Part shown: positions 2 to 27,127 of the stretch, one piece after another
How positions within the stretch are numbered: position 1 is the first letter of the stretch
How the letters are laid out: each line of letters starts with the position of its first letter
IMG/VR virus record: IMGVR_UViG_3300025168_000534
Coordinates: 1-27,127 of that record
Source: a virus
Length of the DNA: 27,127 nt
Direction: 5' to 3' (one strand)
Program-made: the position numbers and the translations under genes
The notes under the pieces: generated by a model
What the model was told of the DNA's origin: nothing
Databases searched by the model: none
The model's input: only the letters and a program-made list of their open reading frames with translations

Positions 2-1381
2 ACATTTACGATGGATGGATCTGCTTTTGATGTAAATTCAACCTCTACCCTAGCTTTAGACAACTCAAATACTTCAAACGGTATAACAATCGGTACTGCC
101 ACATCAGGTGTTCCTATTTCAATTGGCCACGGTACCTCTGAAACCACAGTTAACGATAATTTAAGTGTTACAGGTAATTTAGCAGTTGACGGAACAGCTA
201 ACCTCGACAATACCGATATAGATGGCACATTAGTAGTAGATGGCTCAAACATCTCTTTAGATTCAACCTCTACATTAAATATAGATAACTCAAATACCTC
301 TAACGGCATAACAATTGGTACTGCCACATCAGGTGTTCCAGTTTCAATTGGCCACGGTACCTCTGAAACCACAATTAACGATAATTTAAGCGTTACGGGT
401 AATTTAGCAGTTGACGGAACAGCTAACCTTGATAACACAGACATAGATGGAACACTTGTAGTAGATGGCTCAAACATTTCCTTAGACAGTACTTCCACTT
501 TAAATATTGACAATTCCAACACTTCAAATGGTATAACAATTGGTACTGCCACATCAGGTGTTCCTATTTCAATTGGTCACGGTACCTCTGAAACTACAGT
601 TAACGATAATTTAACAGTTACTGGAAACATCACAGCAAGTGGTGGTTTAAATGCTAACCTAGTAGTTGAACCAGCATCTTTAACTTCAACTAAAGTAGTA
701 GTGTTTGATGATTCAACTAACCAATTCTACTTTACAGGAAGTTATGGGGGAGCTGGAGGAGGAGGTAGCTTAGTAGACCTTACAGCTGCCTCAGCAATAG
801 TATCAGCATCCGTTTTATCATCCGCTAACCAAGGAGAAGCCACATTAACTATAAATGGATCCGGATCTACTATAGATTTAGGTTTAAAAACAGGTGCTTC
901 ACCAACATTCGAGGGCTTAACAACAACGGGTAATGTCCAATTAGGAAACGAATCCACTGATACCGTAACTATTGCTGGTAATCTTATCGTTAATGGAAGT
1001 ACAACAACTATTTCAACCTCAAATCTTACAATTGAGGATAAATTTATGTTATTAGCCTCAGGAGCAGCTACAACAGTTAATGCAGGTATAATAGTTGAAA
1101 GAGAACAAGGAGGAATAGGAACAGCTTTATATTTCGATGCAAACACTAACATGTGGAGTGTAGATGTAACTGGAGCTGATGCAGATGATGGTACTGACGG
1201 ATCCGCTGCTGCAGATGTTAAAGTAGTTACTGTAGGACAAGCATCTAGCTTACCAGCCTCACCACTAATAGCCCTAGACTCAGAGGGAGCTACAGCAGGA
1301 CCAACAGATGCCAATGCTAGAGGTCAATTATTTGTAGACACGGATGATGAGTTTGGATTATATGTTTGGTTGGGAGCATAA
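2..1381 (+). CDS. Tail fibre / structural repeat protein, 5' end outside window
   Basis: Virion fibre-like protein, probably part of the distal tail. The frame is open to the left edge. The first ATG in the window (position 11) lies inside a repeat: TFTMDGSAF...STSTL aligns with TLVVDGSNI...STSTL in the next copy, so the real start is upstream. Three copies of a 75-residue repeat occupy roughly the first 210 residues, with signatures ITIGTATSGVP, SIGHGTSETT and DGTANLDNTDIDGT. A glycine-rich linker (GGAGGGGS, near nt 748-770) follows. The C-terminal part has the pattern NLIVNGSTTTISTSNLTIEDK and ends in LYVWLGA. Such beta-rich repeats are typical of phage fibres and structural proteins of marine T4-like phages (family knowledge). 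A strong terminator follows 22 nt after the stop. Role as fibre is inferred; receptor unknown. Confidence 0.8.
   Translation, partial: TFTMDGSAFDVNSTSTLALDNSNTSNGITIGTATSGVPISIGHGTSETTVNDNLSVTGNLAVDGTANLDNTDIDGTLVVDGSNISLDSTSTLNIDNSNTSNGITIGTATSGVPVSIGHGTSETTINDNLSVTGNLAVDGTANLDNTDIDGTLVVDGSNISLDSTSTLNIDNSNTSNGITIGTATSGVPISIGHGTSETTVNDNLTVTGNITASGGLNANLVVEPASLTSTKVVVFDDSTNQFYFTGSYGGAGGGGSLVDLTAASAIVSASVLSSANQGEATLTINGSGSTIDLGLKTGASPTFEGLTTTGNVQLGNESTDTVTIAGNLIVNGSTTTISTSNLTIEDKFMLLASGAATTVNAGIIVEREQGGIGTALYFDANTNMWSVDVTGADADDGTDGSAAADVKVVTVGQASSLPASPLIALDSEGATAGPTDANARGQLFVDTDDEFGLYVWLGA
62..630 (+). repeat. 225-bp tandem repeat inside fibre gene (about 2.5 copies)
   Basis: Copies begin at 62, 287 and 512, a spacing of exactly 225 nt (75 codons). 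The third copy is cut short near 630. The copies are near identical over long stretches but differ mostly at synonymous positions, so the protein repeat is better conserved than the DNA. Part of another copy precedes position 62 and runs off the window. Confidence 0.85.
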
Positions 1382-1402
1382 TAATATTGTAAAATAAAAA
1401 AG

Positions 1403-1428
1403 AAGCATTCCTATGGGATGCTTTTTTT
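1403..1428 (+). terminator. Rho-independent terminator after fibre gene
   Basis: AAGCATTCC (1403-1411) pairs with GGGATGCTT (1415-1423) around a TAT loop, with one G-T wobble. A run of seven T (1422-1428) follows. It lies 22 nt after the fibre stop codon and just before a promoter-like ATATGTATAT element. Confidence 0.85.
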
Positions 1429-1431
1429 AGT

Positions 1432-1441
1432 ATATGTATAT
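1432..1441 (+). promoter_or_regulatory. ATATGTATAT upstream element (copy 1)
   Basis: ATATGTATAT ends 20 nt before the ATG at 1462. The same ten bases occur 23 nt before the ATG at 8678 and 22 nt before the ATG at 11775. In all three the element is followed by an A-rich leader containing AAGTTAT. The fixed spacing suggests a promoter or leader element; no transcript data are available. Confidence 0.4.
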
Positions 1442-1461
1442 ATGATTAAATAAAATAAGTT

Positions 1462-1608
1462 ATGTTACAAATTAAATTAGAACCACAAGAAATACAATTA
1501 GCAATTGTAGCCATACATCAGACGCAATTTCAAGGTAAGGATGCCCATTTAGTATCAAAAACCTTAAAAAAATTTGAAGATAAGTTAGCTAATTTCAAGC
1601 CTATGTAA
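1462..1608 (+). CDS. Small 48-aa hypothetical protein
   Basis: ATG at 1462, TAA at 1606-1608, product of 48 residues beginning MLQIKLEPQEIQLAI and ending KLANFKPM. It is lysine-rich and probably helical in its second half (LVSKTLKKFEDKL). I do not recognise it. Support comes from the start context AATAAGTTATG, shared with the starts at 4600 and 8678, from the ATATGTATAT element at the usual distance, and from its place between a terminator and the next promoter-like motif, as a one-gene unit. It could be a small regulator or a conserved phage orphan. A chance ORF cannot be excluded because of its length. Confidence 0.5.
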   Translation: MLQIKLEPQEIQLAIVAIHQTQFQGKDAHLVSKTLKKFEDKLANFKPM

Positions 1609-1615
1609 AGCCTTT

Positions 1616-1624
1616 ATATTTATT
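1616..1624 (+). promoter_or_regulatory. ATATTTATA-type promoter-like motif (fibre gene)
   Basis: TATATTTATT lies just after the small ORF and 78 nt before the fibre ATG at 1703. It matches the motif found before the sheath, tube, tape-measure and 14675 genes. If it is a -7 element, the mRNA would carry a leader of about 70 nt that contains hairpins. Confidence 0.35.
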
Positions 1625-1640
1625 AATAGTATATTATTGG

Positions 1641-1693
1641 CCCATTAACTATGGGAAGTAGGCGGTAATGTTGCCGTATCTAACCGTGAAATA
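1641..1693 (+). promoter_or_regulatory. Structured 5' leader of fibre gene
   Basis: This leader is less AT-rich than its surroundings. It contains CCCAT/ATGGG (1641-1645/1651-1655, 5-nt loop), CGGTA/TGCCG (1663-1667/1672-1676, one wobble, 4-nt loop) and GTAT/ATAC (1677-1680/1690-1693). Two short hairpins in series plus a weak third one suggest an RNA element. The stems are short, so this is tentative. Confidence 0.3.
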
Positions 1694-1702
1694 CCACATA
1701 TA

Positions 1703-3706
1703 ATGCCAAGTTGGAAAAAAGTCATAGTCTCCGGCAGTAATGCCAATCTAGCGCAAATAAGCGCAAGCGTAGTCCCTACAGCTACCACCCAAAACTTATT
1801 AGCAATTGATTCCTCAACAGGAGGAATTATGCAGATAGCTCAATCAAATGTAGACTCAAGCACAACAGCAACAGATACCTTTAAAGCAACTGGACAAAGA
1901 AATGGAGACTCAGCCATTACAGGCTCATTGTTTATGTTGAAGGGTAACATAACTGCTTCAGGCAACATAAAGGCAGATGGTGATTTAGCAATAGGTGGAA
2001 ATATTTTTTCATTTAATGGATTTAGCTTTATTCAAGGATTAGCAGCAAACTTTACAGGAAGTAATGTATTTGGATCAGGCTCAAACCCCTCAGCTAATGA
2101 CACAGCGGGTGGTGGAACGGCCCATCAATTTACAGGCTCTGTCGCAATTACAGGAAGTAGTGCATTAGATATTTTTGGAGGAGGTATTACTGTTCATAAT
2201 GGGAACTCTACTTTTAATAATCATGTTTCCCTAGGAGCTGATTCTAATAACAGAATCAATGCAAATGGTTTCGTAGCTACAAGACTAGATGTTAAAAACC
2301 ATATAACAGCCTCACTTAATATATCAGCTTCGGGTGATATAATAGGAAAGGCTATTAGAACTGACACATTTATGGGGACAGGTAATGATGTTTTAGTTTT
2401 ACATGCAAATGCTGGACAGATTTTACTAAGACCTAACGGAGCAACCTCACCTTCCGGAATGACTACTATAGATAATGCAGGATTAACGGCTGCTAACTTA
2501 ATAGGAACTGATGATATCACCGCAGGAGGTGTCATAAGTTCTAGTAAAGTAGACTTAGAATATTCTTTATTTGCTCACTCAGCTTCATTAAATTATGTAA
2601 ATGCCGGTGAATTAGCTTTACCAGGTTTTTCAAATGTCTCAGCTTCTCTAGCAGCTTTAACAGCAGGAACAGTAGGCGATAATTTAGGCAACCACACTGC
2701 AACTGAAGATTTAGATCTTGCTACTTTTAGTATCAAAGGTATCACCAACATAACAGCCTCAGGTGTTATAAGTTCTAGTAAAGATGCTCTTATTAATGGA
2801 TTAACTATTGGAAGAGGAGGGGGAGATAACATAAATAACACAGTTATAGGTAATTTAGCACTTTTATCATCTACTGATTCAAACCAAGAGGGTAACACAG
2901 TAGTAGGCGCTTCAAGCATGCAATTAAGCCCCATAGGTAAACTCAACACAGCGGTAGGTTGGAAAGCATTATACCAGACAAAAGCCTCTAACAACACCTC
3001 TATAGGTCAAGATTCTCTTTACAATCATGTAATTGGAGATAATAATGTAGCTTTAGGTCTTGAAGCAGGAAAAACTATTACAGGAGGTTCAACTGCTCTT
3101 TATTCAGCTTCAAACTCTACCTTTATAGGAGTTGACACAAAAGCCAAAGCAGACGATGAAACAAATCAAATAGTTATAGGTTTTGATGCAGTTGGAGAAG
3201 GTTCTAATACTGTTGTTTTAGGTAATAACTCAATAACAAAAACAGTCTTAAAGGGCGATGTATCTTCAAGTGATAATTTAGCAATAGATAATATAAGAGC
3301 CTCGGGAACAATAAATGGTAAAATGCCATTTTTTACCCACCATAATGGTAATTTTACAAATACCACAGAACAATTTATCCCTATAAATAACATCTCTGAA
3401 GGTATTCAAAGCCTAGAACGTAATACTATAATAGCCCCCCATAATGGAATTTTAAAGAAAATAAAAGTATTCTCTGCAAGCGCCCCTGGTAATACGGTAG
3501 TTGCAGTTTACATAAATACTGCAACTACTTCATCACCACAATTCCAAGTTACAACTACAACATTTTCTGATGCTTTAACTACTGGTACACTTAATGTAAA
3601 TGAATCATTTTCGGCTGATGATAGAATAGCTATATCTTTTAACCCTAATTCACAAATGGGACTTACGGCTGTAACTTGTTTATGGGAATATGATACAAAC
3701 ACATAA
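1703..3706 (+). CDS. Tail fibre protein with NTxxG repeats and C-terminal beta domain
   Basis: A 667-aa fibre-like virion protein. The N-terminus MPSWKKVIVSGSNANL looks like a virion-attachment start and fixes the ATG at 1703. The shaft holds ITASGNI/ISASGDI segments. Residues about 141-215 form a module (HQFTG, GGGITVHNGNSTF, RINANGFVATRLD) that recurs in the 990-aa fibre downstream. Residues about 375-510 carry loose repeats with NTVIG, NTAVGWKAL, NTSIGQDSL, NNVALGLEAG, resembling left-handed beta-roll heads of YadA-type trimeric adhesins (structural analogy, inferred). The last ~130 residues are repeat-free (THHNGNF... CLWEYDTNT) and are the likely receptor-contacting tip. Its stop overlaps the next start by one base (TAATG), so the two are probably translationally coupled. 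Target on the host is unknown. Confidence 0.8.
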   Translation: MPSWKKVIVSGSNANLAQISASVVPTATTQNLLAIDSSTGGIMQIAQSNVDSSTTATDTFKATGQRNGDSAITGSLFMLKGNITASGNIKADGDLAIGGNIFSFNGFSFIQGLAANFTGSNVFGSGSNPSANDTAGGGTAHQFTGSVAITGSSALDIFGGGITVHNGNSTFNNHVSLGADSNNRINANGFVATRLDVKNHITASLNISASGDIIGKAIRTDTFMGTGNDVLVLHANAGQILLRPNGATSPSGMTTIDNAGLTAANLIGTDDITAGGVISSSKVDLEYSLFAHSASLNYVNAGELALPGFSNVSASLAALTAGTVGDNLGNHTATEDLDLATFSIKGITNITASGVISSSKDALINGLTIGRGGGDNINNTVIGNLALLSSTDSNQEGNTVVGASSMQLSPIGKLNTAVGWKALYQTKASNNTSIGQDSLYNHVIGDNNVALGLEAGKTITGGSTALYSASNSTFIGVDTKAKADDETNQIVIGFDAVGEGSNTVVLGNNSITKTVLKGDVSSSDNLAIDNIRASGTINGKMPFFTHHNGNFTNTTEQFIPINNISEGIQSLERNTIIAPHNGILKKIKVFSASAPGNTVVAVYINTATTSSPQFQVTTTTFSDALTTGTLNVNESFSADDRIAISFNPNSQMGLTAVTCLWEYDTNT

Positions 3707-4023
3707 TGGCAAAAACTACTACTACATGGAATAAAGCTAACTTTAAATGGAATATAGCTCCAACTAACACTAGTAAATCTCGTTATACTTGGAATGAAAT
3801 TACGTTAGTTAAGTATGCCGCTGGAGTTGTGGAAGAGGATAATTTTATTCATTCATTTTTTGATAGAGACCCAGAAAAAAAAGATAAATTAGTTAAATTA
3901 ATATGCAAAGTTCAAGGAAAAACTATAAAAAAAGAAAAAGAAATTAAAGACTACAAAATTACTGTTAAAGACATTCAACTCCTTACAGAAGAGGTATTAG
4001 GTATTAACGTAACAATATTATAA
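3706..4023 (+). CDS. Conserved-looking hypothetical protein, 105 aa
   Basis: Starts in the TAATG overlap with the fibre stop. The N-terminal third is rich in Trp and Thr (TTTTWNKANFKWN, YTWNEITLVKY). The rest is charged and lysine-rich (KLVKLICKVQGKTIKKEKEI) and ends DIQLLTEEVLGINVTIL. No signal peptide, membrane segment or catalytic motif is visible. Its position between fibre genes, tightly coupled on both sides (2-nt gap to the next gene), suggests a virion component or a fibre assembly factor. This is inferred from context only. Confidence 0.7.
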   Translation: MAKTTTTWNKANFKWNIAPTNTSKSRYTWNEITLVKYAAGVVEEDNFIHSFFDRDPEKKDKLVKLICKVQGKTIKKEKEIKDYKITVKDIQLLTEEVLGINVTIL

Positions 4024-4025
4024 AC

Positions 4026-4592
4026 ATGTATAAATTATACACAGATAAACAAGAAACATTCGAGTGTGATATTCAACTTGAAGGAGCATCCCTAAATAAC
4101 TCAAAAGCACGTTTAGTTATTGAAACAACTGACTTAGCTCTACTATTTAAGGGCACTATAACTTCAGAGGGAAAATGCAAAATTCCAGTTAAAAAATTAA
4201 AAGGTATTTTAGGTGAAAACTCTAAAGGCACTATAAAATTGGAAGTAATAGCTGAAGACACTTATTTTATTCCTTGGGAGTCTAATTTTGAGGTTGACAC
4301 AGCTAAAAAAGTACAAGTTGAAGTGAAATCACAGCAGGGAAATATCATTAAAGAAGGAAAACCTTCTATTAAAGTAAAAAATATTAATGAAGTAACCCTA
4401 AATGAAAAAAACCACGTTCTAAATATCCTTAAACTACTAATTAAAGAAGAAATTACCTTATCTAATGTTTCTTTTAGAAAAAATAAACTCAACCACATAG
4501 TAGCAACTTATATAGATAAACACCCAATTAACGAAGTACAAAAAAATAAAATTATAACAGGGGTTATAGGTGGACTTTCAAAACTAAAGTAA
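4026..4592 (+). CDS. Hypothetical protein, 188 aa, beta-rich N-terminus
   Basis: Begins 2 nt after the previous stop. Residues about 10-95 alternate hydrophobic and polar residues in a way that suggests a beta-sandwich (FECDIQLEGASL, KARLVIETTD, GTITSEGKCKIPVKKLK, IKLEVIAEDTYFIPWES). The C-terminal half is lysine- and asparagine-rich and more helical (HVLNILKLLIKEEITL). I do not recognise a family. The small beta domain and the neighbourhood fit a structural or decoration protein. The leader of the next gene (4600) has the AATAAGTTATG context. Function is unknown. Confidence 0.7.
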   Translation: MYKLYTDKQETFECDIQLEGASLNNSKARLVIETTDLALLFKGTITSEGKCKIPVKKLKGILGENSKGTIKLEVIAEDTYFIPWESNFEVDTAKKVQVEVKSQQGNIIKEGKPSIKVKNINEVTLNEKNHVLNILKLLIKEEITLSNVSFRKNKLNHIVATYIDKHPINEVQKNKIITGVIGGLSKLK

Positions 4593-4599
4593 ATAAGTT

Positions 4600-4950
4600 A
4601 TGGCGTTACCAGATTTAACGGGCCAAAATATAGAGGATACTTACCAAAGAGTATTACAAATAGGTAATGGGGGTGATCTCCGTGATGGCACAGGTTCTTT
4701 AATTCCTTTTTTAGCTTTAAATGATGTAAGTGCAAGTGACTTTATAATCGGTGGTCGGTTAAATATTGCTACAGCTGCTACTTTAGGCTCTGCTAAAATA
4801 ATAGGCAACCTTACTGTAAATGGCGATATAACTTCAAATAATTCCCATATAAAAGTTTTACTACCAATAACAGCATCAAGTAATATAAGTGCAAGTGGAA
4901 CAATAACAGCAGCATCCTTTATAGGAACAATGGATGGAGGATCTTTCTAA
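4600..4950 (+). CDS. Short tail-fibre protein / fibre N-terminal adaptor, 116 aa
   Basis: The first 35 residues (MALPDLTGQNIEDTYQRVLQ, then GDLRDGTGS) look like a fibre or structural N-terminal adaptor. It is followed by NLTVNGDITS and one ITASSNISASGTITAASF repeat, then stops after GTMDGGSF. Full fibres of this type continue into a long shaft and tip, as the downstream 990-aa protein does, so this is either a mini-fibre or the 5' remnant of a rearranged fibre. The start context AAATAAGTTATGG is shared with other genes here. It ends 13 nt before the next start, and an ATATTTATA motif sits in that gap. Confidence 0.7.
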   Translation: MALPDLTGQNIEDTYQRVLQIGNGGDLRDGTGSLIPFLALNDVSASDFIIGGRLNIATAATLGSAKIIGNLTVNGDITSNNSHIKVLLPITASSNISASGTITAASFIGTMDGGSF

Positions 4951-7245
4951 ATATTTATAACAAATGGCAACTATAATACAAATAAAAAGAGGAACAGGAT
5001 CAGCAGTCCCAACTGGATTAGCTGATGGAGAATTAGCAATCAACCTTGATAATGGTAAATTATTTTTTGGTTCGGGTTCTAATAGCATAAATAGCTTCAG
5101 ATTTAAAAATCTCACAGCAGAAAATTATATAGTATCTTCCTCTGTTACAAATATTACAACACAAACATTATCAGGTTCATCAGCTTTTGGGGATAGTATA
5201 GATGATACCCATCAATTTACGGGCGCCATAACTGCTTCAGGTAATATAAGTGCAAGTGGTAATTTATTAGGGGGTGGTATTACCGTTAACGGCAATTCAA
5301 TTTTTAATAGTAATGTTATTACTTTAGGAGTTGATGATAGTGATAGGATTAATTTAAATGCATATGTTGCAACTAATGTAGATATTAGGGGCCCTATAAC
5401 AGCCTCAGGTAATATAAGTTCAAGTGGAATAGTAACAGCAAATTCATTTACAGGTAATGGCTTATCAATTGATGGCCCTTCAAATGCACACATTGAAGTG
5501 GGTGAATATAATGTAGGATTTGATGTAGTAGCATTAAATACTGTATTTATTACAGGATCAGGTCTTATTATTTCTGGGGCAATGGCTGATGCAAACCACC
5601 ATAATATGTTAAAAATTGGTAATGTAGAGTTACTAGATTTAAATACAGCCCTTTCCCCTAATGAATTCCTTATTCACAATGTTAATAGTTTTAAAATAAC
5701 TAGTGGTAGTGATGGGGGCGATGCAGGAAATTCTGGACGATTATTTGAACATAATGGTACTGATTTTACTCTTTTTAAAAATAATGCGGCAGCAATTGCT
5801 GTTACATCAAATACAACTACACTCACAAATACTAATGTTCAATTTGTAGGTAGTACATTTATTAAAGCAGACATCGAAAGCCCGGGAGCTAATGGTTATT
5901 TTTTATTCGCTGCGAGCGATCCGCATTTATCCCCTACAATAACAAAAGCTGTAAAAACAGATAATGTGTTTCAATCACTTACAGGTAATGTTACAGCATC
6001 CGCAATAAGCGCAAGTGGAACAATAACAGCTTTGGCGTTAGATATTAATGGAGTAGCAGCGAATACTATTGACATTAGCTCTGGAGAAGGCAATGTAGCC
6101 ATTAATGCATCTAGTACAGATGCAGACTGCATGATAAGAGTTCAAGATAATTCCACAGCCGGAACTAATGCAATGGGAATAGTAGCCACATCAGATGATT
6201 TTATAATAAGAAATGATGAAGGTAACTTTAAAGTTAAAATGGCCAATAATGCCACTACAACTCTAACCCTAAACCAGTCTGGAGATTTATCTTTAACAGG
6301 CGAAATCACAGCATCCGCAGTAAGTGCAAGTGGAACAATTACGGCAGCAGCAGCAGTTTTAACAACCGCCGACATAAATGGCGGAACTATTGATGGAATC
6401 ACATCATTAACCGCAGGAGGAGATTTAGACATAGGTGCACATGATTTAAGAGCTGCAACGCTAACAGCCGATGGTTTAACATCTGGAAGAGTAATATTTG
6501 CAGGAACAGCTGGTGTATTATCTGATGATGCAGATTTAACTTTTGCAACTGACACACTAACAGTAACTAAAATAGCAAATGTTAATTCTACTTCTCATAT
6601 AACAGCATCTGGTAATATAAGTGCAAGTGGCAATATAATTGCTGTTTCTATGAGTGCCGCAGCTCTTAGTGGTGACGGTAGTGGAATAACAAATGTATCA
6701 GCAACCGCGAATGCAGGAACATACTCAAGTTCTTTACAAATATTAGGTAATATAACATCTTCAGGTAATATAAGTTCAAGTGGAACTATCATAGCCGCTA
6801 CTTTAGATGCAGCAGCGGTTACAGATACCTTAGCTGCAGCAATTGTTGCTGAAATAGATAATGATGAAATCCCAATCGCTAAATTAGCTGAAGACGCTGT
6901 AACTGTAACTGCTGGAACCGGCCTTACAGGAGGAGGAAGTATCACTTTAGGTGGTTCAGCAACTGTAAATGTAATAGGAGGTACAGGTGTAACAGCAAAT
7001 GCAAATGACATAGCTATTGGTCAGGATGTAGCCACTACAGCAAATGTACAATTTGCTAATATTACATCATCCGCTAATATAAGTGCAAGTAGTACTATAT
7101 CTGCTTTTTCAATAAATTTACAGGGCGAAATAATAAGAACAGATGGTGACTTTATAGATATACCAGGTTCAGGATTAATAGTAACTAAAGGTATTCAAGC
7201 AGAGTCACATATAACAGCATCAGGTAATATAAGTGCAAGTGGAGA
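4870..7245 (+). repeat. Dispersed ~30-bp ITASGNISASG-coding repeats
   Basis: Variants of ACAGCATCAGGTAATATAAG followed by TGCAAGTGGA recur near 4870, 5227, 5399, 5995, 6307, 6601, 6747, 7063 and 7212 within two adjacent fibre genes. Looser copies occur near 1950 and 2311 in the 667-aa fibre. They encode short shaft repeats. Their nucleotide similarity could promote recombination among fibre genes. Confidence 0.75.
4951..4959 (+). promoter_or_regulatory. ATATTTATA motif abutting fibre start
   Basis: ATATTTATA ends only 4 nt before the ATG at 4964. If it works as a -7 element like the other copies, transcription would begin at or next to the start codon, giving a leaderless mRNA. It may equally be a chance match in AT-rich DNA. 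Confidence 0.3.
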
Positions 7246-7936
7246 TATTAAAGCAAATACATTCACAGCAGTAGGTAACGTTGATTTTGATGGTGATTTA
7301 GATGTAGATGGTACTGCTAATTTAGATATAGTAGATATAGATGGAGCAGTTGATATGGCTTCAACTTTAACAGTTGATGGAACCGTAGATATTGAAGGAG
7401 AACTACAACACAGTGGTGATGCAGATACTAAAATTTCATTTGCTACAAATCAAGTATCAATAAAAGCTGGTAATACTGTAGTATTTTCATCTACAGTAAC
7501 AGGAAGTAAGGTAGAAAATGTACACCAAAATATATATAACACAGGCTCATTAGCTTTATCAGGTAATGGGGGTGCTATTGGAGATATAGTCAAATTTGGG
7601 GGTATTACAACAATAGCCGGTGGATTATATGCTCTTACAGGATCTGATTGGTCACTCGCTTCAGCAACTAGCACAGCTACAGGAGCAACATCTTCTTTAG
7701 CGGTAGCATTAGGTACTAATCCATCATCAGATGGAATGTGTTTAAGAGGATTTGTAAATCCAGCCGTAGATCCATCAGCTCCATTAGGTAATCCCCTTTT
7801 CTTAAATACAACAGTAGGTAGAATGGTAAAAACAGCTCCGGCATCATCAAATAATGTAGTAAGAATAGTAGGCTACCAATATGGTTCAGACTTAATTTAC
7901 TTTAATCCATCTAACGATTATATAATACACGCTTAA
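4964..7936 (+). CDS. Large tail fibre protein, 990 aa
   Basis: The N-terminus MATIIQIKRGTGSAVPTGLA followed by DGELAINLDNGKLFFG is a familiar phage fibre start and supports the ATG at 4964. The shaft contains at least eight ITASGNISASG-like repeats with DNA-level similarity. A module at residues about 83-155 is paralogous to residues 141-215 of the 667-aa fibre. DVDGTANLDIVDIDGA near residue 780 recalls the repeats of the first, partial fibre. The last ~120 residues form a distinct beta domain (GDIVKFGGITTIAGGLYAL, GNPLFLNTTVGRMVKTAPAS, ending YFNPSNDYIIHA), a type common at the C-terminus of marine phage fibres. Probably trimeric and host-contacting (inferred). The stop overlaps the next ATG by one base. 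Confidence 0.85.
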   Translation: MATIIQIKRGTGSAVPTGLADGELAINLDNGKLFFGSGSNSINSFRFKNLTAENYIVSSSVTNITTQTLSGSSAFGDSIDDTHQFTGAITASGNISASGNLLGGGITVNGNSIFNSNVITLGVDDSDRINLNAYVATNVDIRGPITASGNISSSGIVTANSFTGNGLSIDGPSNAHIEVGEYNVGFDVVALNTVFITGSGLIISGAMADANHHNMLKIGNVELLDLNTALSPNEFLIHNVNSFKITSGSDGGDAGNSGRLFEHNGTDFTLFKNNAAAIAVTSNTTTLTNTNVQFVGSTFIKADIESPGANGYFLFAASDPHLSPTITKAVKTDNVFQSLTGNVTASAISASGTITALALDINGVAANTIDISSGEGNVAINASSTDADCMIRVQDNSTAGTNAMGIVATSDDFIIRNDEGNFKVKMANNATTTLTLNQSGDLSLTGEITASAVSASGTITAAAAVLTTADINGGTIDGITSLTAGGDLDIGAHDLRAATLTADGLTSGRVIFAGTAGVLSDDADLTFATDTLTVTKIANVNSTSHITASGNISASGNIIAVSMSAAALSGDGSGITNVSATANAGTYSSSLQILGNITSSGNISSSGTIIAATLDAAAVTDTLAAAIVAEIDNDEIPIAKLAEDAVTVTAGTGLTGGGSITLGGSATVNVIGGTGVTANANDIAIGQDVATTANVQFANITSSANISASSTISAFSINLQGEIIRTDGDFIDIPGSGLIVTKGIQAESHITASGNISASGDIKANTFTAVGNVDFDGDLDVDGTANLDIVDIDGAVDMASTLTVDGTVDIEGELQHSGDADTKISFATNQVSIKAGNTVVFSSTVTGSKVENVHQNIYNTGSLALSGNGGAIGDIVKFGGITTIAGGLYALTGSDWSLASATSTATGATSSLAVALGTNPSSDGMCLRGFVNPAVDPSAPLGNPLFLNTTVGRMVKTAPASSNNVVRIVGYQYGSDLIYFNPSNDYIIHA

Positions 7937-22150: not shown

Positions 22151-23476
22151 ATGTACTACCTCATAGAAACTAAAGATCAATTAAATCGTTTTTTTAAAGA
22201 TGAAGGCAATGAATGTTACCTTCAATTTATTACAAATAATGATGAGGTACACCCCAAATTACAATCTCTATGTGCTTTATACATTTACTCATTTAGTAAA
22301 GAAAAGGGATTTATTATTAATTTAAATCATCCTGAGGCATTTGAATTAGACTTACCCCTAAATCATTTGCAATTTTACACAAACATATTTGTGAAAGAAA
22401 AAACCAAAGCTTTACTACACCTTCCCCAACTTTCTTATACGGATATACAATCTATATTCTACTTACTAAAAAATGAGCCTTTAGATCCGCTACCAAAAAC
22501 AGCAGCCCACACGTTTTATGAGCGCAAATTTGGCGCAAACAACGTGAATAAAATAATTCCAATTACAAAACACTACGAGGCGTTAACCCAGGAATTTAAT
22601 GCGTTAAATCCATATATTACTAATTACAAGAGTGAAGCTTCAAATAAATGGTATAATGAAATACTTACACCAACTTTAGCTAAAATGGTAAGTGAGGGCT
22701 TTAAAATTAATGGTGACTTTCAAAAACACTTCGACATTAAGGAAAAGTTTAGTATTAAAGACGATAAAATATATGGTTGGTATAATTTTTGCACAACAAC
22801 CGGTCGTCCCACTAATAACTTCAATAAAATAAACTTCTCAGCCTTAAAACACGACAGTGGAGAAAGAGATGCTTTTGAAGCAAATAACGATGTATTGGTT
22901 GAAATGGATTATGAGGGCTACCACCCACGAATTATAGCTTACTTAATAGGACACTACATAGATAATAAAGAATCTGTACATACTCAACTAGCAAAAATGT
23001 ACTTTGAAACTGAGGAGGTAGATAAGGAAATGTATAAAAAAAGTAAAGAGCTAACCTTCCAACAAATGTATGGGGGTATATCTAAAAAATATCTTAAACA
23101 TGAGTACTTTAATAAAACCCAAAAATTTATCGATGCCTTGTGGGGGGAATTTAATGAAAAAGGATTCGTTAAAACTCCAATTTCAAGGCGTAGGCTTTTA
23201 AAAGGCAATTATAAAAACATAACACCACAAAAGTTGTTTAATTACTACATACAAGCATTTGAAACTGAGTATAATATTACTTTACTATCGCGAATATTTG
23301 AATTTTTAAAGGATAAAAAAACTAAGATGGTGTTATATGTGTATGACTCCATGCTATTTGACTTTTCGTTAGAGGATGGTAAAGAAACTCTTCAATCTTT
23401 AAAAAATTTAATTTCATCTGACTTTCCTATAAAATTAAAGAAAGGAAATATATACTCTTCTCTTGAGGCCCTTTGA
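22151..23476 (+). CDS. Compact family-A DNA polymerase-like protein, 441 aa
   Basis: Likely the replicative or repair polymerase. PolA landmarks in order: TTTGRP (residues 215-220, Arg219 as in TGRLS), motif A VEMDYEGYHPR (catalytic Asp253), motif B KKSKELTFQQMYGG (Lys299, Phe303, Tyr307-Gly308 align with E. coli Pol I Lys758, Phe762, Tyr766) and motif C YVYDSMLFDF (catalytic Asp399). Odd features: His258 stands where Glu710 (sugar steric gate) is expected, Tyr295 replaces Arg754, and motif C reads YDS instead of HDE. The N-terminal 160 residues may be a relic 3'-5' exonuclease domain, but no DxE motif is visible. At 441 aa it is much shorter than usual phage PolA proteins. It heads the replication block right after tail genes. 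Activity is likely from the two aspartates but unproven. Confidence 0.85.
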   Translation: MYYLIETKDQLNRFFKDEGNECYLQFITNNDEVHPKLQSLCALYIYSFSKEKGFIINLNHPEAFELDLPLNHLQFYTNIFVKEKTKALLHLPQLSYTDIQSIFYLLKNEPLDPLPKTAAHTFYERKFGANNVNKIIPITKHYEALTQEFNALNPYITNYKSEASNKWYNEILTPTLAKMVSEGFKINGDFQKHFDIKEKFSIKDDKIYGWYNFCTTTGRPTNNFNKINFSALKHDSGERDAFEANNDVLVEMDYEGYHPRIIAYLIGHYIDNKESVHTQLAKMYFETEEVDKEMYKKSKELTFQQMYGGISKKYLKHEYFNKTQKFIDALWGEFNEKGFVKTPISRRRLLKGNYKNITPQKLFNYYIQAFETEYNITLLSRIFEFLKDKKTKMVLYVYDSMLFDFSLEDGKETLQSLKNLISSDFPIKLKKGNIYSSLEAL

Positions 23477-23484: not shown

Positions 23485-23506
23485 TGTGAACAATACAATT
23501 CACACA
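23483..23506 (+). promoter_or_regulatory. 8-bp perfect inverted repeat before ATG 23507
   Basis: TGTGTGAA (23483-23490) and TTCACACA (23499-23506) are separated by 8 nt and end directly against the ATG. It may be an operator at the transcription start or an RNA hairpin controlling the start codon. Confidence 0.5.
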
Positions 23507-23899
23507 ATGAACAATAAACTTTACTGCACCTTTATTGAAGAAGATGAAGTAGATGAAGTTATAGATGAGATAGTAGGGGAGTACGAAGTTTTATTCAATA
23601 AAATATTTGTTCTGTCCTCTATAGACGAGGATAAATTAATGTTAACTTATAACATTGATGTTCCTTATGGAAATTATAATTTGCATTTACCTAATACCAT
23701 TTTGGTCCACAGAAAAAAACAAACAAATACCTTATATACTATAAATGCATTAAATGAGGTTATAAAATATTTAAATAATGGTATCTTAGATACCTCCTAC
23801 CAAGTTGATTGGAGTAAATTTAGAAATTCCTTACTATTAACTCGCCCTGGTGGATTTAAAAAACTAAGAACACGCTTAAAAGACATTAGAGAAATATAA
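23507..23899 (+). CDS. Conserved-looking hypothetical protein, 130 aa
   Basis: The ATG at 23507 is preferred over a GTG at 23486, which lies within the inverted repeat and the probable promoter. Acidic N-terminus (FIEEDEVDEVIDEIVGEYE), then YNIDVPYGNYNLHLPNTIL, a compact block VHRKKQTNTLYTINALNEVI, then VDWSKFRNSLLLTRPGGFKK and a basic end RLKDIREI. It has the look of a small conserved phage protein of the replication region, not a chance ORF, but I cannot assign a function. Own promoter-like motif plus a possible operator suggest separate control from the polymerase. It lies 15 nt before the cysteine synthase gene and is probably co-transcribed with it. Confidence 0.75.
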   Translation: MNNKLYCTFIEEDEVDEVIDEIVGEYEVLFNKIFVLSSIDEDKLMLTYNIDVPYGNYNLHLPNTILVHRKKQTNTLYTINALNEVIKYLNNGILDTSYQVDWSKFRNSLLLTRPGGFKKLRTRLKDIREI

Positions 23900-23914: not shown

Positions 23915-24814
23915 ATGAGATTATCAAGTTATGTAGGAAATACACCACTAATTCCTATTAGATTAGGAGGATACACAGTATGGGGTAAATGTGAATTTAT
24001 GAATCCCGGAGGATCCGTTAAAGATAGAATGGCAACTTATATTTTAGATGACGCCGAAGATCGTAAACTTATAAAAAAAGGTGACACATTAATAGAAGCA
24101 ACTTCAGGTAATACTGGAATTGCTTTTGCTATGTTAGCAGCAGAAAGAGGCTATAAAATGAAAATTGTAATGCCTTCTAATATGTCTAAAGAACGTAAGC
24201 AAATGTTAAAGTTTTATGGTGCTGGTTTAATTCAAGTAGAAGAAGGAGACTTTGATGGAGCAATAGAGACTAGAGATACTTTAGCAGAATCTTTTGGATG
24301 GTTTAATTGTAATCAATTTCACAATCCCTTAAATATACTAGCACATTATAACACAACAGGCCCTGAAATCAATAAACAATTTAGAAAATTAACATCTACC
24401 GATCATGAATCACCATGGCCCCAAGCATTTGTTGTTGGAACAGGAACAGGAGGAACTATCATGGGTTGTGGAGAGTACCTTAAAGAAAAATTTCCAGGAA
24501 TGAATTTAATAGCTGTAGAACCAGAAGAAAGTGCAGTTATGTCAGGGGGAGAGCCAGGCCTACATGGAATTCAAGGTATTGGGGATGGAAGCAAGTTCTT
24601 AGTAGATTTAAATAAAATAAATGGCATTAGGACTGTACACACAGAATGTGCAAAAAAAGTAGCAAAACATTTAGCTTTAAAATATGGGTTATTTGTTGGA
24701 ATATCAGCGGGAGCAAATGTAATGGCTGCTTTTCAATGGTTAAGAGATAATAATCAACAAACCGCTATAACAATTCTGTGTGATAGGGGTGAAAGATATT
24801 TTAGCTGCTTATAA
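23915..24814 (+). CDS. cysM: Cysteine synthase (PLP-dependent, CysM/CysK family)
   Basis: Makes L-cysteine from O-acetylserine and sulfide (CysM may also use thiosulfate), in the cytoplasm with pyridoxal phosphate. 299 aa matches E. coli CysM (303 aa). All key motifs are present: NPGGSVKDRMA with Lys36 as Schiff-base lysine, EATSGNTGIA (61-70) substrate loop, VVGTGTGGTIMG (173-184) phosphate-binding loop, HGIQGIG (217-223), VGISAGAN (261-268) with the Ser contacting the PLP ring nitrogen, and LCDRGERYFS near the end. Nothing suggests decay. It stands among phage replication genes with matching AT-rich codon use, so it is a phage-borne auxiliary metabolic gene. Start context AAAAGGTTATGAG. CysM versus CysK, or a related beta-substituting enzyme, cannot be settled from sequence alone. 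Confidence 0.93.
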   Translation: MRLSSYVGNTPLIPIRLGGYTVWGKCEFMNPGGSVKDRMATYILDDAEDRKLIKKGDTLIEATSGNTGIAFAMLAAERGYKMKIVMPSNMSKERKQMLKFYGAGLIQVEEGDFDGAIETRDTLAESFGWFNCNQFHNPLNILAHYNTTGPEINKQFRKLTSTDHESPWPQAFVVGTGTGGTIMGCGEYLKEKFPGMNLIAVEPEESAVMSGGEPGLHGIQGIGDGSKFLVDLNKINGIRTVHTECAKKVAKHLALKYGLFVGISAGANVMAAFQWLRDNNQQTAITILCDRGERYFSCL

Positions 24815-25634: not shown

Positions 25635-26780
25635 ATGGCTAGAAAATCCAACAAACCAGCTCCAACAGGGGAAAGTCTTACTGAGGAATTAGCGGTATCG
25701 CTGAATAAAAAATTCAAGAAAGAATACAATCAGGTAGCATACTTCCTTAATGGGGGAGAAGAATCGCCAACAGATGTTACGTCGTGGGTATCTACTGGAT
25801 GCACACCACTGGATCTAGCGATTTCTAACAGACCAAACGGGGGTTTGCCTGTTAGTAAAATTGTTGAGATTACGGGTCTAGAGCAAAGTGGTAAATCCCT
25901 CCTTGCAGCCCACGTTATAGCTTCTACACAAAAACAAGATGGTGTAGCAATTTATATTGACACAGAGTCATCACTTGATGCTCAGTTTTTAACCGCCATA
26001 GGAGTTGATGTTGATAATATGCTTTATATTCCCCTTAATACTATTGAGGATGTTTTTGAAGCTATGGAAGACATCATTGTTAAAATTCGCGAAAAAAACA
26101 AAGATAAATTAGTTACAATTGTTGTTGACAGTGTTGCCGCTGCTACTACTAAGATTGAATCTGCTGCTGATTATGATAAAGATGGATACGCAACGGCAAA
26201 AGCCATTATTATGTCTAAATCAATGCGTAAGATTACTAATCTAATAGGGAAACAAAAAATCCTGTGTGTATTCACAAATCAGTTACGTCAAAAACTAAAT
26301 GCTATGCCATTTGGTGATCAATACACAACATCAGGAGGAAAAGCCCTACAATTCCACGCTTCAGTTCGCTTACGACTCAAAGGAGTAGGTAAGATTAAAG
26401 AAAAAGTTAATGGAGTTGACACAGTAGTTGGTCAAGAAGTAGAATGTGTAGTTGTTAAAAACCGCCTAGGCCCCCCTAACCGAAAAGTACGTTATAGTGT
26501 ATTTTATGATTCAGGGATTGATGATGTTTTTGGTACTTTAAAATTACTTAAAGAATATAGTGTTGTAAAACAAGGAGGAGCATGGTATAAATATACTACT
26601 GCTGATGGTGAAACCCACCAATTCCTAGCTAAAGAATTTGGAGATTTATTAGAAAGCCACCCAACAGCTAAGGAAGAATTATATGAAGCTCTTTGTGATA
26701 AATACATTATGAAATATCGTCATGAAAAAGAAGACAATCTAGATCGTGATCCTGACGAAACCATAGTTGAGAATGAATAA
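25635..26780 (+). CDS. uvsX: RecA/UvsX-type recombinase
   Basis: ATP-dependent strand-exchange protein for recombination-dependent replication and repair. 381 aa (T4 UvsX 391). Walker A GLEQSGKS (81-88) within KIVEITGLEQSGKSLLAAHV, catalytic Glu111 in YIDTESSLD, Walker B VTIVVDSVAA (160-169), TNQLRQK (214-220) matching the RecA INQIR region, and TTSGGKALQFHASVRLRL (231-248) matching the RecA TGGxALKFYASVR block. These look closer to bacterial RecA than T4 UvsX does. The acidic end (DNLDRDPDETIVENE) is usual for this family. It sits between gp32-like and exonuclease genes, and its stop codon overlaps the exonuclease start by 8 nt. Confidence 0.93.
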   Translation: MARKSNKPAPTGESLTEELAVSLNKKFKKEYNQVAYFLNGGEESPTDVTSWVSTGCTPLDLAISNRPNGGLPVSKIVEITGLEQSGKSLLAAHVIASTQKQDGVAIYIDTESSLDAQFLTAIGVDVDNMLYIPLNTIEDVFEAMEDIIVKIREKNKDKLVTIVVDSVAAATTKIESAADYDKDGYATAKAIIMSKSMRKITNLIGKQKILCVFTNQLRQKLNAMPFGDQYTTSGGKALQFHASVRLRLKGVGKIKEKVNGVDTVVGQEVECVVVKNRLGPPNRKVRYSVFYDSGIDDVFGTLKLLKEYSVVKQGGAWYKYTTADGETHQFLAKEFGDLLESHPTAKEELYEALCDKYIMKYRHEKEDNLDRDPDETIVENE

Positions 26781-27127
26781 ATTTGAAGATATATTAAACA
26801 ATATAACCCCAGAAGAGAAGCACCCTAATGACAGGGTGCTTCTTATTGATGGGTTAAATATATTTTTAAGGGCATTTGCTGTAAATGGTTCCTTAAATGA
26901 AAAAGGTGTACCTGTAGGAGGTATTACTGGTTTTATGAAATCTTTAGCGTTTGCTATTAGAGAAATGGAACCTACTAGAGTTATTGTAGTTTATGATGGT
27001 GCAGGGGGTAGTAAAAGAAGAAGAAAAATTAAACCTGATTATAAGGCAAATCGTACTCCTAAAAGAGTAACTAAATTTGATGCTTTTAATTCCTTAGAGG
27101 AGGAAAAAGAAGCAATGAAAATTCAAT
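26773..27127 (+). CDS. 5'-3' exonuclease (T4 RNase H / FEN-like), 3' end outside window
   Basis: Removes RNA primers and 5' flaps during lagging-strand synthesis. 118 codons are visible, then the window ends. The start overlaps the recombinase stop by 8 nt. After a short leader segment (MNKFEDILNNITPEE) come RVLLIDGLNIFLRAF, with the first metal-binding Asp, and VIVVYDGAGGSKRRRKIKPD followed by YKANR, the arginine/lysine-rich 5'-nuclease block with the second Asp. Both are classic motifs of the PIN/FEN 5'-nuclease family. Adjacent ssDNA-binding protein and recombinase support the role; T4 gp32 contacts RNase H. The remaining metal-site acidic residues would lie beyond the edge. It carries a strong hairpin at codons 15-24. 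Confidence 0.88.
   Translation, partial: MNKFEDILNNITPEEKHPNDRVLLIDGLNIFLRAFAVNGSLNEKGVPVGGITGFMKSLAFAIREMEPTRVIVVYDGAGGSKRRRKIKPDYKANRTPKRVTKFDAFNSLEEEKEAMKIQ
26816..26843 (+). promoter_or_regulatory. 11-bp perfect hairpin inside the exonuclease gene start
   Basis: AGAAGCACCCT (26816-26826) and AGGGTGCTTCT (26833-26843) pair perfectly around AATGAC. The downstream TATTG is only weakly T-rich. The base pattern GAAGCAxxC is like the terminator at 1403. It may attenuate transcription after uvsX or slow translation. Confidence 0.45.

Follow-up and report, generated by a model that had tools for sequence, protein, structure and literature searches.

Several reports describe viral cysK or cysK/M genes from marine viromes and jumbo phages and, in their accessible text, read them as sulfur metabolism genes (PMC8725595, PMC10134843, PMC11018836, PMC13037316, PMC6359870). 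The one such gene traced to a source, from the Mariana Trench, was assigned to Thaumarchaeota in the accessible part of that report (PMC8725595). As far as the available descriptions go, and it is by descriptions only that we set our gene apart, none of the reported viral cysK/cysM genes forms a separate subfamily with the loop presented below, is linked to Flavobacteria or has members in small Flavobacteriales. A literature search, with subscription papers mostly outside its coverage, returned no description of a cysteine synthase subfamily carrying the motif HGIQGIGDGSK in the text available. A full cysteine synthase gene is known from cultured phages of the Lactococcus phage P087 group (Teubervirus), but the P087 enzyme, 40% identical to ours, groups with canonical bacterial CysK and lies outside the clade described here. 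Many further 'phage' database matches (Listeria, Staphylococcus, Acinetobacter and faecal scaffolds) were not used as precedents, since they resemble bacterial sequence that ended up in phage assemblies, and the one that was examined proved to be so. The isozymes CysK and CysM are told apart, according to the accessible parts of two papers, by a single segment, made of small residues with Ala231 in the former and of Arg210-Arg-Trp in the latter, where it likely binds thiosulfate (PMC9547175, PMC3805590).

A cysteine synthase-type gene within a phage replication module

The window, i.e. the whole stretch of DNA that was analysed, is a virus record of 27,127 bases; since it is a 27-kb fragment, the rest of its genome is not directly readable. 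The replication genes and the gene under study are arranged as follows.

22151-23476, plus strand: family-A DNA polymerase-like protein (Pfam DNA_pol_A, 1.4e-15; 33% identity to immuto gp1)
23486-23899, plus strand: 137-residue ORF with no family match, syntenic with immuto gp2 (50% identity, 1e-43)
23915-24814, plus strand: predicted cysteine synthase (O-acetylserine sulfhydrylase-type PALP) of a viral subfamily, 299 residues
24881-25633, plus strand: gp32-like single-strand DNA-binding protein (SSB; 45% identity to immuto SSB)
25635-26780, plus strand: UvsX/RecA recombinase (profile match)
26767-27127, plus strand: 5'-3' exonuclease, truncated at the end of the window (Pfam 5_3_exonuc_N, 1e-15; 43% identity to immuto gp6)

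The ORF runs from an ATG at 23915 to a stop ending at 24814 with no interruption. A sequence-only reading of this DNA had placed a cysteine synthase between phage replication genes, which is what we find: the polymerase and, immediately upstream, the ORF without a family precede it, and SSB, UvsX and exonuclease follow. Tail and baseplate genes, sheath and tube among them, make up the remainder of the window. Long, repetitive tail-fibre-like ORFs occupy positions 11-7936, with near-identical repeats (e.g. SISLDSTSTLNIDNSNTSNGITIG) and a weak Mtd N-terminal match. Around the gene, a scan for promoters and terminators gave promoter candidates no better than chance.

The same gene order, sheath-tube-hub-tape measure-polymerase-gp2-SSB-RecA-exonuclease, is found in the Flavobacterium phage vB_FspM_immuto (Immutovirus, 160 kb, Baltic Sea), with identities to the window of 52% for the sheath, 56% for the tube, 60% for the hub, 33% for the polymerase, 50% for gp2, 45% for SSB and 43% for the exonuclease. 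Between gp2 and SSB, where the window carries cysK, immuto has an unrelated 171-residue gene, and it has no cysteine synthase match; nor were any Flavobacterium phages among the database matches to the window enzyme. This indicates that cysK is facultative cargo at a variable position. Near its replication genes, immuto (NC_055915, 18607-20331, L207) encodes QueC, a thioredoxin-domain protein and tRNA-Cys.

The host of the window virus is probably a flavobacterium, judging from the 52% identity of its tail sheath to that of immuto, from the synteny and from a type IX domain in the viral relative G008 (145 kb, same gene modules). This relative encodes an 844-residue protein (L191:309-2843) that carries a C-terminal sorting domain for type IX secretion, a domain typical of Bacteroidota. 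More generally, the large phages carrying the clade appear to infect marine Flavobacteria.

A host-type metabolic gene with phage flanks and synteny to a cultured phage has the genomic setting of a phage auxiliary metabolic gene. Host contamination, already dismissed by the sequence-only reading, and a recent host copy are both ruled out by the phage neighbours, the synteny with immuto and an identity of at most about 48% to proteins of 198 Bacteroidota genomes outside the clade. The gene is under purifying selection, with dN/dS values of 0.05-0.16 in comparisons of the window with eight viral relatives; these values, the existence of 95 viral homologues and the synteny rule out both contamination and an ORF arising by chance.

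Fold and active site of a probable O-acetylserine sulfhydrylase

The 299-residue product matches Pfam PALP (PF00291) with 222.5 bits for a gathering score of 35 (1e-65), and this score together with the invariant Lys36 makes it a member of the fold-type II PLP enzymes. It matches the NCBIfam cysKM model at 1e-88, but its 297.5 bits against TIGR01136 fall short of the curated cut-off of 344, and it scores under every curated NCBIfam cut-off (cysKM, cysK, cysM), while the best curated matches are cysteine synthases. We therefore name it a cysteine-synthase-type subfamily and not a CysK/CysM equivalog. The closest solved protein by sequence is the O-acetylserine sulfhydrylase 1ve1 of T. thermophilus (2e-64), and the closest solved folds are again O-acetylserine sulfhydrylases, 1ve1 (TM 0.90) and S. 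aureus CysK (TM 0.89), as compared with an AlphaFold model of pLDDT 84.7. Identity to E. coli CysK is about 39% and to E. coli CysM about 40%. The positions that matter for function are listed below.

24020-24022, plus strand: codon of Lys36, the PLP Schiff-base lysine, invariant in clade alignments and aligned with the lysine of E. coli CysK/CysM (role, PMC9547175)
24101-24115, plus strand: TSGNT substrate (asparagine) loop, residues 63-67 (clade alignment and PMC9547175)
24314-24319, plus strand: Gln134-Phe135, equivalent of the CysK active-site QF, invariant (role, PMC9547175)
24443-24454, plus strand: GTGG, residues 177-180, PLP-phosphate loop, invariant in clade alignments
24563-24604, plus strand: clade-diagnostic loop HGIQGIGDGSKFLV, residues 217-230 (49-row alignment; comparison with CysK/CysM)
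24704-24706, plus strand: Ser264 in GISAGAN, which corresponds to the serine at the PLP pyridine (S272 of H. influenzae CysK), invariant (active-site list, PMC9547175)

All segments of the published CysK/CysM active-site list (Lys, TSGNT, QF, GTGT/GTGG and the PLP serine; PMC9547175) are present, and Lys36, S64-G65-N66, Gln134, GTGG 177-180 and Ser264 are invariant across the clade alignment; at residue 67, roughly half of the clade members have Thr and the others Ser. The landmarks from which the sequence-only reading had deduced an intact PLP-fold enzyme (Lys36, SGNTG, GTGTGGT at residues 175-181 and GISAGAN at 262-268) are exactly as it described them, and the active-site positions checked are unchanged. 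With CysK of E. coli, S. aureus and T. thermophilus (1ve1) the protein thus shares the fold, the PLP lysine, the TSGNT loop, QF, GTGG, the PLP serine and the QGIG stem of the donor loop; with E. coli CysM it has in common the segments IEATSGNTGI, MPxNMS and CDRGxRYxS. It departs from CysK in a shorter C-terminus, in a variable insertion at about residues 159-168 and in its end, CDRGERY, which is as in CysM.

A charged, invariant donor loop

A further departure lies in the loop that follows the QGIG stem, where the clade motif HGIQGIGDGSK is invariant. In a 49-row alignment, residues 217-227 and V230 do not vary, and F228 and L229 hardly do. The Gly-Ala-Gly of the CysK donor loop is replaced by Gly223-Asp224-Gly225, with Asp224 aligned to CysK Ala231 and CysM Arg210, and Ser226-Lys227 stand where CysK has Phe/Ile-Pro, so that Asp-Gly-Ser-Lys takes the place of Ala-Gly-Phe-Ile-Pro. 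Nor is the Arg210-Arg211-Trp212 segment that CysM uses for thiosulfate present, as the clade has Gln220-Gly221-Ile222. Position 220 is an invariant Gln in the clade and Arg220 in M. tuberculosis CysM, a residue which we take to be used for O-phosphoserine. These replacements of Arg-Arg-Trp and of Arg220 favour sulfide over thiosulfate and O-acetylserine over O-phosphoserine. An acidic residue at the position of Asp224 is also seen in sister proteins from archaea, Diapherotrites and Poribacteria, and M. tuberculosis CysM carries a Glu there, as confirmed on its sequence. An O-phosphoserine-type archaeal enzyme as nearest kin is ruled out, since ordinary cysteine synthases are the best matches of the sister protein from archaea. 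A structural reading of the changed loop is precluded by the AlphaFold confidence, which is below 50 at residues 213-223, i.e. within the loop itself.

From the residues present, we expect the substrates to be O-acetylserine and sulfide, with a real chance of an altered donor: the invariant Asp224 and the Ser226/Lys227 replacement suggest that the sulfur donor or the amino-acid substrate may differ. The protein could thus be a PLP enzyme that catalyses beta-substitution with another nucleophile or acceptor, for instance one whose sulfur donor is larger or bound to a carrier, or whose product is not cysteine. The charged loop, invariant and distinct from its counterparts in CysK and CysM at the very place that determines sulfur-donor specificity, the acidic residue of its sister proteins and of M. 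tuberculosis CysM, and the scores below the curated cysK/cysM cut-offs all speak for it. Against it, every other active-site segment matches O-acetylserine sulfhydrylases, the large viral relatives yielded no ThiF/ThiS sulfur-carrier system, and the cellular members of the clade stand alone in genomes lacking canonical CysK/CysM, as a plain cysteine synthase would. We regard this alternative as rather unlikely.

A mostly viral clade in several genomic contexts

One scan for viral relatives found 95 viral stretches, of which 80 were kept, with identities of 63-96%. The viral contigs bearing the clade number no fewer than 95, and the longest measures 298 kb. Clustering of the neighbouring genes at 81 loci gave several unrelated contexts. 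The gene follows cyclophilin and precedes lysozyme in about 35, is near SSB, UvsX or ribonucleotide reductase in 22, near GroEL or a PD-(D/E)XK nuclease in 12 and between tail genes in 5, with 7 loci in other contexts. A fixed operon of cysK with replication genes is therefore ruled out. The sequence-only reading had seen in the proximity of ssb, recA and exonuclease genes a hint about replication; this gains no support, since most relatives carry cysK elsewhere and the syntenic immuto does without it. Over 17 loci, cysK and UvsX distances are correlated (Mantel r 0.86, p 0.0005), cysK being much more conserved: it is 65-84% identical to the window gene where UvsX is 27-61% identical.

A ribonucleotide reductase gene lies within 6 kb of cysK in 14 loci, often adjacent; the reductases comprise adenosylcobalamin-dependent as well as class I types. 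This proximity, irrespective of class, and the reverse reaction, a known property of CysK according to the accessible part of one report (PMC8725595), would suit a main role in the balance of sulfide and thiols in place of net cysteine for protein, be it by reverse cysteine desulfhydration, as a redox buffer or as a source of thiols for ribonucleotide reductase. Such a role is improbable, given that most other loci lie near cyclophilin and lysozyme, GroEL or tail genes and that no dedicated partner was found.

Several other genes were observed close to the cysteine synthase of the relatives. A glutamine synthetase gene (L033:7652-8692; cluster c13, 18 loci) lies a few kb away in many of them, and GroEL-type chaperonin genes are close by (L011:4500-6122; cluster c24). 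Relatives also carry a eukaryotic-type phosphomannomutase (L038:8894-9595, cluster c48) adjoining small cupin-like proteins (L037:8445-8786, cluster c23), and in G008 the UV-damage endonuclease UvdE is encoded directly upstream of SSB (L189:567-1589).

In the tree, all viral rows group with a 635-kb phage (LR745206) and with some rows from metagenome-assembled genomes (MAGs) in one clade with SH-aLRT 100 and a stem of 0.7-0.9, apart from E. coli CysK, E. coli CysM and Bacteroidota CysK/CysM. The best match outside the clade in the 198 Bacteroidota genomes is about 48% identical. A placement in a known non-cysteine clade, which would have contradicted the sequence-only reading, was not observed.

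Members on small Flavobacteriales chromosomes

Cellular members fall in three places among the viral rows. The MAG members L084, L087 and L100 look viral; that all MAG members are binned virus contigs is ruled out for L082, L083/L088, L085 and L086 by chromosomal neighbours (MnmE, photolyase and xanthine-dehydrogenase-type subunits). We screened 396 Flavobacteriales genomes with a query made of the first part of the L083 protein joined to the window protein, matches being confirmed by their own sequences. The clade was found in 6 of them, all MAGs of 1.5-2.0 Mb and possibly incomplete. In five of these possibly incomplete MAGs, the clade member is the sole CysK/CysM candidate besides a CBS/cysteate-synthase-like PALP, no CysK or CysM being above cut-off, which counts in favour of a working cysteine synthase; a canonical CysK is present in the sixth, G035.

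The three cellular groups nested among viral rows and the lack of canonical CysK/CysM in five MAGs fit an acquisition by Flavobacteriales from phages. In the AU test, a single viral clade was not rejected (p 0.12), so that transfer could have run either way. The full form of this scenario, in which a subfamily that evolved in viruses and has a donor specificity of its own (Asp224/Lys227 loop) was acquired from phages by streamlined marine Flavobacteriales as their only cysteine synthase, is a tentative proposal that we consider possible but doubtful.

Other sulfur genes of the large relatives

Partner genes were searched in large relatives, which are mostly fragments with three above 200 kb, so that absence from them is not proof. 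For the IscS-type desulfurase (aminotransferase class V), 28 records gave two weak partial matches just over the cut-off and one below it. No cysE was above cut-off in the large viral relatives or in the MAGs searched, no MnmA in the large viral relatives and no member of the PAPS reductase/DndC family (cysH/dndC) in the viral records; ThiF and ThiS were not found in 18 large relatives. The weak cysE-like and PAPS-reductase-like matches of G005 and G013 are only a few kb apart and, from this position, are probably sugar-modification genes. For cysteine synthesis, the phage seems to contribute no more than the final step. No recognisable cysH was found in two small clade-bearing MAGs; this and the lack of cysE above cut-off in the MAGs searched make the host source of O-acetylserine and sulfide a point against a working cysteine synthase.

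G008 encodes an APS-kinase-like domain fused to a HAD-like region (L190:2726-3487) with an adjoining cytidylyltransferase-like protein (L190:3484-3837), and a sulfotransferase-domain protein (L190:11032-11652) near glycosyltransferase-like genes. Phage-encoded glycan sulfation is a possible function of the APS-kinase and sulfotransferase genes, as is a polynucleotide kinase/phosphatase for L190:2726-3487.

The sequence-only reading had also suggested that the enzyme feeds a phage-encoded thiolation or Fe-S system, and this suggestion is all that speaks for a supply of sulfur to DNA or tRNA modification. It found no backing in the large relatives, in which DndC/CysH and MnmA were not above cut-off, ThiF and ThiS were missing and desulfurases amounted to the weak partial matches in two records; the sulfotransferase-domain and APS-kinase-like proteins of G008 would use sulfate and not cysteine. 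We consider such a supply very improbable.

Discussion

We favour as the likely function of the ORF at 23915-24814 that of a working, virus-adapted O-acetylserine sulfhydrylase-type cysteine synthase drawing on host O-acetylserine and sulfide, a proposal built on comparisons of sequence and fold. The scores below the NCBIfam cut-offs and the altered loop (Asp224, Ser226/Lys227) count against it. In the proposed reaction, O-acetylserine would bind the PLP on Lys36, acetate would leave and sulfide would add to the aminoacrylate to give cysteine. The infected flavobacterium would have to provide O-acetylserine and reduced sulfur, the phage contributing the last step only. Made during infection, the enzyme could allow cysteine synthesis to continue once the synthesis of the host enzyme stops or when regulation holds the host enzyme back. 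It is plausible that cysteine or sulfur supply limits infection.

Viral cysK genes as such are already known; what is new is a mostly viral subfamily with a diagnostic loop. Such genes are usually listed singly as sulfur auxiliary genes, and here they make up a large, coherent branch. This clade is an old branch of the family that shifts between genome positions in large phages and is also present on a few small-genome Flavobacteriales chromosomes. Since curated models currently miss the branch, HGIQGIGDGSK offers a simple annotation marker for it. The clade raises a testable question, namely whether a single last-step cysteine enzyme benefits the phage, and with which sulfur donor. Its members in small-genome Flavobacteriales raise the possibility that a core biosynthetic step of the host was replaced by a phage version.
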